Positions 7,984 to 39,558 of a DNA stretch of 64,000 nt are shown in pieces; the stretch's first letter is position 1; every line of letters starts with the position of its first letter. Origin of the DNA: Dyadobacter fermentans (lineage in GTDB: Bacteria > Bacteroidota > Bacteroidia > Cytophagales > Spirosomataceae); assembly GCF_019924045.1 (NCBI RefSeq), contig NZ_JAHXBN010000010.1:434001-498000 (forward strand). Direction: 5' to 3'. The notes beneath the pieces are model-generated. The model was not told the DNA's origin. It was given only the letters and a program-made list of their open reading frames with translations, and did no database searches. The position numbers and the translations under genes are program-made.

Positions 7984-7985
7984 TT

Positions 7986-8070
7986 TCGAATGACTGAATG
8001 ATTGAATGATTGAATAAAGTAGTATTCGGTCATCGCATTATTCAGTCATTCAATCATTCGGTCATTCAAA
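7986..8070 (+). repeat. Inverted array of 8-bp units between tdh and kbl
   Basis: The left arm (about 7988-8017) is a run of GAATGAYT units with an 8-bp period. The right arm (8038-8068) is its reverse complement. Over 30 positions the only two non-Watson-Crick pairs would be G-U pairs in RNA, so the tdh-kbl mRNA can form an almost perfect 30-bp hairpin with a 20-nt loop. It begins 3 nt after the tdh stop and ends 10 nt before the kbl start. It may insulate, stabilise or process the message or limit kbl translation; this is inference. Confidence 0.75.
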
Positions 8071-8080
8071 ATTCATCATC

Positions 8081-9268
8081 ATGTACGGTACCATAAAGCA
8101 AGAACTTCAGGGCGAACTGGAAGCGATCCGTTCGGCCGGTTTATATAAAAAAGAACGCGTGATTACCACGCCGCAGTCGGCACACATTGCTACGACCGAT
8201 GGTGCGGATGTGCTTAATTTTTGTGCTAATAACTATCTGGGCCTTTCGTCACATCCCGATGTGATCCAGGCCGGTATCGATGCCATTCATTCGCATGGTT
8301 TCGGTATGTCGTCGGTGCGGTTTATCTGCGGCACGCAGGATATCCATAAGGAACTCGAACGGAAGACGGCCGAATTCCTGGGAACGGAGGATTGCATTCT
8401 CTACGCAGCGGCATTCGATGCGAATGGCGGCATTTTCGAACCGCTACTGAACGAGCAGGACGCTATTATCTCCGACGAGCTGAATCATGCTTCGATCATC
8501 GACGGCGTGAGACTATGCAAGGCCAAGCGTTTCCGCTATAAACATAACGACATGGCCGATCTCGAAAAGCAGCTCCAAGACGCGCAAGGCAGCCGCCGCA
8601 TTCTGGTCGTGACGGATGGGGTATTTTCGATGGACGGTACCATCGCCCGCCTCGATCAAATATGCGATCTTGCCGAGCAGTATAAAGCCATGGTAATGAT
8701 CGATGAATGCCACGCCACAGGTTTCATGGGCAAAACCGGACGCGGTACGCACGAATACCGTAATGTTATGGGTCGCATCGACATCATTACAGGTACATAT
8801 GGTAAAGCATTAGGCGGGGCCTCTGGTGGTTTTACGGCTGCCAAGAAGGAGATTGTTGAGATCCTGCGGCAGCGTTCAAGGCCTTATTTGTTTTCCAATA
8901 CATTGGCGCCTTCCATTGTAGGTGCTTCTATCAAAGTACTCGATCTGCTCACCTCATCCACTGCACTACGCGACAAGCTGGAAAGGAACACGCAATATTT
9001 CCGCAAGGCCATGACCGAAGCCGGTTTTGACATTCTTCCTGGCGAGCACCCGATCGTACCCATTATGCTTTATGAAGCAAAACTGGCGCAGGAATTTGCC
9101 GCCAAGCTGCTCAACGAAGGCATTTACGTGATCGGCTTCTTCTATCCCGTAGTTCCCCAAGGCAAGGCGCGCATTCGTGTACAGATCTCGGCCGGGCATG
9201 AACAGGAGGATTTGGAAAAGGCCGTTGCGGCGTTTACGAAAGTGGGTCGCGAGTTGGGCGTTATTTAG
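8081..9268 (+). CDS. kbl: Glycine C-acetyltransferase (2-amino-3-ketobutyrate CoA ligase)
   Basis: 395 residues, normal length for this PLP-dependent alpha-oxoamine synthase. Landmarks are [14 protein letters not shown] near residue 46, the [14 protein letters not shown] glycine-rich stretch about 72-85, DECHATGF about 208-215, and the PLP lysine Lys242 in GTYGKALGG. It cleaves 2-amino-3-ketobutyrate with CoA to glycine plus acetyl-CoA and acts after tdh, the gene just upstream. Serine palmitoyltransferase and AONS/KAPA synthase belong to the same fold. The tdh neighbour and the [13 protein letters not shown] signature favour Kbl. The 3' end is followed at once by the 10-bp repeat array. Confidence 0.94.
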
Positions 9269-9270
9269 TC

Positions 9271-9380
9271 GGGTGTGGCTAAGTATGTCATGTGTAGTCA
9301 TGTGTAGTCCGGAATTGTCAGGTGTGGTCAGGAATTGTCAAGTATAGTCAGGTGTAGTCAAATATCGTAAGGTGATCCGG
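9271..9380 (+). repeat. Degenerate 10-bp tandem array, left arm
   Basis: From 9281 to 9370 the sequence breaks into nine 10-mers in exact register, nearly all ending in GTCA (for example TGTGTAGTCA, GGTGTGGTCA, GGAATTGTCA, AGTATAGTCA). A less clear unit lies on each side. The array starts a few bases after the kbl stop. The right arm at 9601-9705 carries the reverse complement of the same unit, so the interval is a giant imperfect inverted repeat. No reading frame or known element explains it. Confidence 0.8.
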
Positions 9381-9398
9381 AGGCAAATGCCGCTAGGC

Positions 9399-9537
9399 AT
9401 GTAACATTGGTAGGAAATACAGCTGGATTGGTTGTAATAAAAATGCCGTCAGGCATGTAACAACAATGCTCTGTTGTCGCATGCCTGACGGCATTTTTCG
9501 GACCACATCATTAGTTCGATTGCTACCTATATTACAT
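9399..9537. repeat. Inner inverted pair around the central palindrome
   Basis: ATGTAACATTGGTAGGAAAT at 9399-9418 is matched in reverse complement by ATTGCTACCTATATTACAT at 9519-9537, with most positions identical. The left copy is preceded by TGCCGCTAGGCATG, a variant of the arm of the central palindrome, so the element is nested: outer 10-bp arrays, then this pair, then the palindrome. It resembles a REP-type dispersed palindrome, but no transposase is present. Confidence 0.6.
9439..9498. terminator. Bidirectional hairpin between convergent kbl and transglutaminase genes
   Basis: The arm AAAAATGCCGTCAGGCATG at 9439-9457 pairs perfectly over 19 bp with 9480-9498. After a 2x2 mismatch a further 6 bp (ACAACA/TGTTGT) close on a 6-nt loop. 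The A-tract and T-tract at the ends give a U-run on both strands, so it can terminate both convergent genes. It is also the symmetry centre of the surrounding nested repeat. Confidence 0.75.
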
Positions 9538-9590
9538 CGCTACGCGATTCGGGCGACGTACTTTTACGTAAATGCATTGTAATGTTCCGT

Positions 9591-9705
9591 CATTTTCGTC
9601 AATACTCGACCATCCCTGGCTACATCTGACAACACCTGACTCCCCTTGACCATTCCTGACAACACCTGACAATACCTGACTACTCTTGACTATCCCTGAC
9701 AACAC
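9591..9705 (-). repeat. Degenerate 10-bp tandem array, right arm
   Basis: From 9601 the sequence reads in 10-mers that nearly all end in GAC (TACATCTGAC, AACACCTGAC, CATTCCTGAC, TATCCCTGAC and so on). Ten units run without a single insertion or deletion. The array ends at the stop codon of the transglutaminase gene at 9706. It is the inverse complement of the left arm at 9281-9370. Confidence 0.8.
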
Positions 9706-10506
9706 CTACTGTTCCCCTTCCAGTAACTCGACCTCGACGTGCAGCGATTGCAGCGTTGCATTGCCGTATTGGGTAACCATCGCCACATCCGCAGCGTCGC
9801 GGCCGTGGGCGATCTCGATGCGATAGCCTTCCGTTTTTTCCTGTACCGCATCAAACGTGTACCATTCGCCGCCGATAAACACCTCGAACCAGGCGTGCAG
9901 GTCCATATCCTTCAATTTATCGAGATAGCCGACGGTCATGCGTGTCGGGATGCAGAGATTGCGGCATAGTGCAATGGCCAGGTGCGTGAAGTCGCGGCAC
10001 ACGCCTACGCGGCTGTGGGCGGTGTCGAGCGCAGTGGTGGCAGCATTTGAAAACCCATACTGGTAGCGCACATTGTGGTGGATCCACGAGCGGATTGCCT
10101 CCACCTGCTCGTAGCCGGGCGTGAGGTTACCTGCTATTTCCAGGGCCAGCATATTGATTTCGTGTAAATCCGACTGGCAATAGCGGCTCGGCAGGATATA
10201 ATGCATCACTTCATCGGGCAAATCCCCTACAAGCATATACGCAGGCGCCGGGTCTGGAATCGGTTTTGTAGGGTTCACCTGTGCCTGCACTTCGGTGGTG
10301 ATGGTAACACGGCCCACGGGCAGGATGGTGCGCTGGCATGGGTTGCCGTACAGGTCGGTATATTCCGAAAACGGAACGGGCGGTTCAATGTTAAAACCTT
10401 CCTGAATGATCGATTGGCCTTCCTGGCGGCGGGGGCGTAACATGGTCGTCACGGTGGTGGGGGCATACACGTCGTACGTGAATATGCTTCTGCCCTTCAT
10501 TTTCAT
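9706..10506 (-). CDS. Transglutaminase-like family protein
   Basis: 266 residues. The N-terminal half (about 1-120) is a beta-rich domain usual in bacterial transglutaminase-like proteins. The C-terminal half carries the cysteine-protease-like core: Cys in RVGVCRDFTHLAIALCR at about 170, the His of DLHAWFEVFI and the Asp of FDAVQE, which together form the Cys-His-Asp triad. No signal peptide is seen, so it is probably cytoplasmic. In many bacteria such a gene sits with alpha-E, circularly permuted ATP-grasp and Anbu genes. Here alpha-E and Anbu lie 6 kb away on the other strand and the ATP-grasp gene is not in view. Two ATGs six bases apart (10506 and 10500) could start it. The substrate is unknown. 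Confidence 0.85.
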   Translation of the reverse strand: MKMKGRSIFTYDVYAPTTVTTMLRPRRQEGQSIIQEGFNIEPPVPFSEYTDLYGNPCQRTILPVGRVTITTEVQAQVNPTKPIPDPAPAYMLVGDLPDEVMHYILPSRYCQSDLHEINMLALEIAGNLTPGYEQVEAIRSWIHHNVRYQYGFSNAATTALDTAHSRVGVCRDFTHLAIALCRNLCIPTRMTVGYLDKLKDMDLHAWFEVFIGGEWYTFDAVQEKTEGYRIEIAHGRDAADVAMVTQYGNATLQSLHVEVELLEGEQ

Positions 10507-39400: not shown

Positions 39401-39558
39401 TTGTTGTCATGTGTGGTCATTTGTAGTCATGAATTGTCATTTGTTGTCACGTATGGTCAATCTTGTTGAATTTTTCCTGACCATACATGACTATAGATGA
39501 CTACTCCTGACTACCCCTGACAATGAATGACCACAAAATGACAATACCTGACTTATTC
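39401..39558. repeat. Second degenerate 10-bp inverted array
   Basis: The left arm 39401-39460 consists of six exact 10-mers: TTGTTGTCAT, GTGTGGTCAT, TTGTAGTCAT, GAATTGTCAT, TTGTTGTCAC, GTATGGTCAA. A decayed seventh follows. The right arm 39478-39558 has eight units beginning TGAC, one of 11 bp and the rest of 10. The innermost pair, GTATGGTCA at 39451-39459 and TGACCATAC at 39478-39486, is perfectly complementary. It starts 8 nt after the PhyH stop. The unit is the same as at 9281-9705. Confidence 0.85.

Follow-up and report, generated by a model that had tools for sequence, protein, structure and literature searches.

The locus between kbl and the transglutaminase gene

In the 64-kb stretch of Dyadobacter fermentans DNA that was analysed here (the window), a kbl-like gene (8081-9268, + strand; PF00155) and a convergent transglutaminase-like gene (9706-10506, − strand; PF01841) flank a gap that holds two facing arrays and a hairpin element. 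The left decamer array (9268-9376, + strand) comprises 11 units in 10-bp register, the first of which starts on the last base of the kbl TAG stop codon; GTCA is intact in seven of them, with an in-register run at 9287-9366. It is faced by a right array (9601-9700, − strand) of 10 units, eight with intact GTCA, and the two arrays are 79% complementary over 87 nt. Between them lies a REP-like core of 165 bp (9385-9549, + strand), in which two outer halves with mini-hairpins surround a central hairpin (9439-9498, + strand). The 19 perfect pairs of this hairpin (9439-9457 with 9480-9498) belong to 27-nt arms that are 93% complementary and separated by 6 nt; with a T-run on both strands, the structure is terminator-like in both directions. 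An RNA family search at the palindrome returned only mir-1265 (twice) and SNORD49, eukaryotic families that scored far below their gathering scores.

An earlier note on this DNA had described three concentric symmetric layers at 9269-9705: outer arrays of strict 10-bp units bearing GTCA, a middle inverted pair (9399-9418 and 9519-9537), and the central palindrome. The sequence and a comparison of the arms confirmed that all three are present. The units are strict in their register but not in GTCA, which is altered in some, and the middle pair is real but is the outer part of the palindrome's own element rather than a separate layer. Shuffled sequence, which the note had named as a control, did not reproduce the pattern: three in-register GTCA gave 17 matches in the window and 0 in 100 dinucleotide shuffles.

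The 17 matches were confined to two elements, the kbl gap and a second at 39406-39552, which consists of a left array of 6 units (39406-39465, + strand) and a right array of 8 units (39472-39552, − strand). At the orthologous place of this second element, each of the four species compared has facing arrays. The segment 38173-38200, with three TGAC steps of 8-10 bp, aligns gap-free in four species and was dropped as a candidate array. The gap upstream of kbl (7984-8080) holds a facing array of GAATGANN octamers, running on the + strand from 7988 and on the − strand from 8067, and in the orthologous gap of genome G202 the octamers are replaced by GTCA decamers.

Two repeat families in the genome

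Four GTCA in 10-bp register occurred 306 times in forward and 304 times in reverse orientation in the whole genome (8.0 Mb, 173 contigs), and the reversed pattern 0 times in either. The possibility that no other locus would carry the unit in register is excluded by this search, and the claim that the arrays are organised and are not explained by the palindrome was borne out. DNA fetched from the genome for closer study amounted to 957,552 bases, overlaps counted twice, and in it lie 432 of the 610 runs, as well as 58 array loci. Most of the stretches had been picked for containing matches, and a 400-kb tile of contig C17, a contig already known to contain matches, was taken whole.

The unit can be written GTCA-NNN-(A/G)-T-N. 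Across 827 units, each position of GTCA was present in 98-100% (a figure partly imposed by the search), position 5 was G, T or A, position 6 was G in 81%, position 7 was mixed, position 8 was a purine in 93%, position 9 was T in 92%, and position 10 was A, G or T; C was nearly absent outside GTCA. Spacing from one GTCA to the next was exactly 10 in 686 of 770 steps of up to 25 bp. A matrix built from the 827 units was then used as an array detector, with a score threshold of 17 for the window arrays and of 30 or 40 elsewhere. All 40 two-arm loci that it found ran + then −, that is, inward. The detector kept the strongest chain alone where same-strand chains run together, and the tests of order, arm length and sense were therefore repeated with exact runs; runs of at least three units gave inward polarity in 35 of 35 two-arm loci, and left 23 single-arm loci, 14 with the − arm only and 9 with the + arm only. 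At one locus (L139, 17120-17479) the right arm has 36 units and a 20-bp higher-order pattern of a TT unit and a GG unit. By eye, the TT units are nearly constant and bases 7-8 of the GG units are diverse; in each of two species the orthologous arm has 13 units.

The arrays do not appear to have been copied from locus to locus. Among the 58 loci, two-unit words were common to 78 locus pairs (87.5 expected), three-unit words to 2 (1.0 expected) and four-unit words to none; copying between loci in this genome was rejected for want of any excess of common unit words. In another genome, G196, two arrays 5.6 kb apart (C1, 2447186-2447439 and 2452840-2453053) have four units in the same order, which may be an instance of copying between loci.

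The core belongs to a dispersed family of its own. Relatives were located at 44 sites in the fetched DNA and, among the matches listed, they accompany decamer arrays, accompany other arrays, or stand alone. A tally of gaps in the same DNA gave 43 with an array only, 22 with a core only and 11 with both, and orthologous gaps carry arrays both with and without a core. Because arrays and core occur apart, they are two independent families, nested at this locus; the single nested element that the earlier note had entertained is rejected. Core matches were found in 16 of 59 genomes searched, all 16 of them within the genus, the present genome included.

The REP-like nature suggested in that note holds for the middle and central layers and fails for the decamer arrays, whose unit, GTCANNNRTN, lacks self-complementarity. 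The core, a palindrome, is dispersed in many extragenic copies, and about seven tandem core-like copies adjoin a Y1 (HUH) transposase gene at C9:956572, a likeness to REP sequences and their RAYT/HUH genes as characterized in the parts consulted of PMC3733652 and PMC6006769. These tandem copies have a period near 215 bp (L354, 1-1902, and L073, 4009-5468; C9, about 955000-957000). The conserved core stretch is absent beside the other two Y1 genes of the genome. The resemblance to REP/RAYT systems has limits on both sides. The Y1 gene beside the core copies contains the motif YIQTQKEHH, which fits the Y---Q--HH signature of HUH subclass 1.2, a subclass that, in the part of PMC6006769 consulted, is generally without typical terminal structures; for the decamer family, the unit is non-palindromic and no array lies beside the three Y1 genes, in contrast with the systems of those two papers as far as the parts consulted describe them. 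REP elements may carry a GTAG or CGTC tag at the foot of the palindrome; in the core, the sequence GGTAG is located some 25 nt away from the central hairpin.

Gene ends, orthologous gaps and their interpretation

The arrays are found at gene ends and are rare in divergent gaps. With genes called as greedy longest ORFs, and gaps of 40-900 bp considered in the fetched DNA, arrays were present in 18 of 73 gaps between convergent genes, 34 of 278 between tandem genes and 2 of 97 between divergent genes; the corresponding counts for the window and C17 tile alone were 5 of 34, 2 of 136 and 1 of 47. In convergent gaps the median distance from a stop codon to the beginning of an arm is 4.5 bp; in tandem gaps the arms stop a median of 43 bp short of the next start. 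Within tandem gaps, sense arms and antisense arms were alike, with 10.3 and 11.5 units respectively (n = 23, p 0.30) and similar quality, or 8.5 and 9.9 units by exact runs (n = 21, p 0.30), and a sense-strand RNA motif was rejected on these grounds.

The decamer arrays lack the form of an intrinsic terminator, a hairpin followed directly by a T-run: at a cut of −7 kcal/mol, terminators were detected in 7 of 41 array-only gaps, as compared to 51 of 141 among the remaining gaps that are 100 bp or longer (p 0.023) and 85 of 278 among all remaining gaps (p 0.096). For gaps of 150-500 bp the counts were 7 of 34 and 30 of 84 (p 0.13), and cuts of −5, −9 and −11 gave p values of 0.012, 0.30 and 0.19. 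The depletion of intrinsic terminators in array-only gaps is thus weak and depends on the cut.

The unit has been kept over considerable divergence. At four orthologous loci, each present in two to four of the genomes G000, G207, G202 and G204, 188 of 222 orthologous units still have GTCA, a count that takes in degenerate end units, whereas identity at the fourfold sites of kbl is 0.54-0.64 among the species. Constraint is position-specific within each unit and common to unlinked loci, as would be expected of an array of binding sites.

The gap downstream of kbl differs among genomes. A search of the genus detected the gene in 48 genomes, and of 30 loci returned, 29 had a readable gap and one had no readable neighbour. 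Judged by eye, five of these hold GTCA arrays, five hold facing GGAGGAA-type arrays and 19 hold neither, many of the latter having a plain hairpin and T-run. In G202, again by eye, a facing element stands complete at the stop codon of kbl, and an apparent ancestral terminator is still behind it; that terminator is missing from G000 and G207, and G211 has a minimal two-plus-two form. Comparison of G202 with array-free relatives suggests gain of an array at the stop codon. No clear target duplication of the kind associated with MITEs was visible by eye at the G202 element.

Where orthologous gaps lack GTCA, another tandem class (GAATGA octamers, GGTC, GCCGAAA or GCCGATT) was found in 12 of 16 distinct species-gaps, against baselines of 9 of 137 gaps in the window and C17 tile together and 24 of 247 when all fetched DNA of the genome is counted. 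The 16 gaps were collapsed by hand from 19 rows without GTCA, some gaps having been reached from two species. The list of other classes was compiled after the orthologous gaps had been viewed and a motif-free periodicity score was added for that reason; it gave 9 of 16 distinct gaps as compared to 9 of 137. The other classes have polarities of their own: in the tiles, GAATGA runs + then − in 6 of 6 close pairs and GGTC runs − then + in 7 of 7. In the C17 tile (L124-L143), GGTC repeated every 7 bp runs − then + in 6 of 6 close pairs, and the class also occurs in L072, L074, L097 and L126. At L107 (5637-5833), GGAGGA arms appear to enclose a GTCA array, so that classes nest.

Our preferred reading, held tentatively, is that the facing decamer arrays may serve as boundaries in both directions at the ends of genes, built from dense polar binding sites. 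Each 10-bp unit would be a recognition site, about one per turn, for a putative factor, most likely a DNA-binding one; the boundary would be formed jointly by two polar rows of sites that face one another, and bound protein would stop or isolate transcription from either side, replacing an ordinary terminator. A long hairpin in the transcript would follow from the arrays facing each other; it may be of help at the 3' end, though its formation would not be what maintains the unit sequence. In the kbl gap, the separate REP-like hairpin element would have settled into the centre of the facing arrays. The family, its unit grammar, inward polarity and location, the unfitted arms, the motif kept across species and the exchange in orthologous gaps are observations; the binding factor, its protein nature and the boundary function are what we infer. 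One motif occurs at unlinked loci, is not spread by copying and has been kept over time, which points to sites read by a trans-acting factor. The arms of a locus are no more complementary to each other than to those of other loci (below) and the motif is nonetheless kept, which argues for recognition of each unit rather than for a conserved stem. Orthologous gaps swap an array for other arrays or for terminators, and we therefore read the arrays as two-way boundaries. The exchange with other array classes is also the main result against a unit-specific factor: classes of other unit lengths sit in the same gaps, which a GTCA-specific factor reading the helical register does not explain, and readings of the arrays as filler or as hairpins thus stay alive. 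Genes beside the two best-kept arrays offered no candidate for the factor; three of the four match metabolic families and one matches no family. The weakness of the terminator depletion, and the 12 of 34 Dyadobacter genomes without a five-unit run, also count against the boundary reading.

The arrays could instead be neutral satellites that fill promoter-free gaps, slippage multiplying the units and the motif reflecting an origin (a seed or a generating enzyme) rather than a use. We consider this unlikely, although several observations are what it predicts. Blocks have been duplicated locally within arms, where identical units recur at lag 4 (18%) and lag 2 (7.6%) above chance (2.1%); arrays extend to the stop codon in convergent gaps and end before the next start in tandem gaps; and gaps that lack GTCA so often hold another tandem class. 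Neutral filling is harder to reconcile with the survival of GTCA and its spacing across species in which fourfold sites have diverged as far as those of kbl, with the inward polarity of every two-arm locus by either count, and with a motif that, there being no copying between loci, needs something in trans to be common to them.

A second alternative is that the arms are the stems of a long hairpin, in RNA or in single-strand DNA, as structured 3' UTRs that protect or end transcripts. The earlier note had raised a structured 3' UTR, and the interval 9269-9705 does fold strongly on both strands (z −11.5 and −12.2), owing to the facing layout; a conserved stem, with arms that change together, was not borne out. 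At the variable bases, own arms matched with a mean score of 0.61 as compared to 0.67 across loci (28 loci), and the duplex energy of own arms was −49.4 kcal/mol as compared to −50.3 for arms of different loci (30 loci, permutation p 0.76). A co-varying stem was rejected, there being no signal in either test. Given unfitted own arms together with sense and antisense arms that are alike, there is no sign of reading as sense RNA only or of a motif kept by pairing. Tandem units can pair in many registers, however, so that a hairpin would not need own arms to fit, and a left arm pairs with a right arm at about −50 kcal/mol per 60 nt whichever two loci they are taken from. A stem also better predicts a correlation of arm lengths within a locus, which was seen in one of two counts (rho 0.42, p 0.006 by the matrix; rho 0.28, p 0.10 by exact runs), and other array classes likewise form facing arrays. 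Against it, conservation is very uneven along the unit, whereas pairing would weigh positions alike, and one locus has 7 units in one arm and 36 in the other. We regard the hairpin as a rather unlikely account of the arrays.

Less probable still, and in our view quite improbable, is a two-way terminator dependent on Rho, in which the second arm met in either direction would be transcribed into a C-rich, G-poor RNA that loads the protein. The placement of arrays at gene ends would suit it, as would the near absence of C from the G-rich arm apart from GTCA, which makes the facing arm C-rich and G-poor; but Rho is not known to require TGAC in strict register, and in lineages with TT-type units the arm must, from the units themselves, be less C-rich. 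That each array moved as a unit, possibly by an HUH transposase, is highly improbable: the whole element at the kbl stop codon of G202 and the common unit order of the two G196 arrays would fit, but loci of the present genome have no common unit words beyond chance, and no GTCA array lies within about 1.5 kb on each side of the three Y1 transposase loci, for which reason an array-specific transposase was rejected.

Comparison with described systems and spread among lineages

Several familiar systems have features in common with the decamer arrays. OmpR/PhoB-type boxes, like the decamers, are direct repeats that have a GTCA core and follow one another at about one helical turn, but those boxes are two or a few sites at promoters; the decamer arrays, of putative sites, have up to 36 units per arm, face one another, and lie at gene ends. 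Bidirectional intrinsic terminators are found between convergent genes and are symmetric for both directions; they are present, by eye, in the kbl-transglutaminase gap of several relatives. The arrays occupy the same place and have the same two-way symmetry, but most array gaps are without a hairpin and T-run in the arrays, and the arms are long and unfitted. Short tandem repeats and minisatellites consist of tandem units that multiply locally, as the decamers do; the decamer arrays differ in keeping their unit motif over 58 loci without common unit words, and in their inward polarity.

A search of the open-access literature, most subscription journals being outside its range, returned no description of facing decamer arrays, and the part of a triplex-repeat paper that was consulted (PMC4666352) has no mention of the terms looked for. 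The nearest described system, judging from the portion of PMC4596501 consulted, is the BrickBuilt MITE of Porphyromonas gingivalis, also of the Bacteroidota, which is intergenic and dispersed and contains a tandem minisatellite. The facing decamer arrays are intergenic, dispersed and tandem in the same way. BrickBuilt, as described there, has a 23-nt unit in one array with a leader, a tail and small inverted ends; the arrays here have 10-bp units in two facing rows with no leader or tail seen, and their loci are without common unit words.

The family is largely one of the genus. A five-unit pattern was found in 22 of 34 Dyadobacter genomes (the present one included), 12 of the 34 having no five-unit run, as compared to 14 of 166 other genomes of the family; a control pattern gave 0 of 200. 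When the purine-T was required, matches were obtained in 2 of 395 genomes of a phylum sample, again including the present one. Among the matches listed, an opposite array faced inward at 25 of 30 Dyadobacter loci, 5 of 23 loci in other Bacteroidota and 0 of 59 in other phyla; opposite arrays facing outward numbered 0, 0 and 1, respectively. Within the sample and among these matches, the facing layout is limited to Bacteroidota. The 59 loci outside the phylum, none of them inward-facing among the matches listed, were taken as ordinary tandem repeats; three of these 59 reached a purine-T in 70% of units.

Bases 5-6 of the unit form lineage dialects, GG-type in the clade of the present genome and TT-type in others. 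Across lineages, some of them represented by few units, position 8 was a purine at 0.81-1.0 and position 9 was T at 0.75-1.0, the exception being the MAG KLAP56, with T9 at 0.40. A bolder form of the boundary reading, possible but on balance doubtful, would make the arrays the track bound by a polar DNA-binding system, as yet undescribed, which would coat the ends of genes in Dyadobacter and, sporadically, in other Bacteroidota; they would be a two-way boundary element whose unit dialects match what the factor of each lineage recognises. Should the unit prove to be a binding site, this group of bacteria would mark its gene ends with dense facing rows of protein sites, for which we know of no bacterial precedent. 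Each genome supplies dozens of natural replicates, and together with lineage dialects and empty sites these make the factor and its effect on read-through directly testable; the orthologous swap of whole tandem-array classes also lets one examine whether intergenic arrays have a use or are merely tolerated.

Three of the five inward-facing loci in other Bacteroidota, among the matches listed, came from KLAP56. Its loci (L207, L232 and L264) carry decamer arrays that face each other, GTCATTGGGC and GTCATTAATC being examples of their units, in which T9 is mostly not retained.
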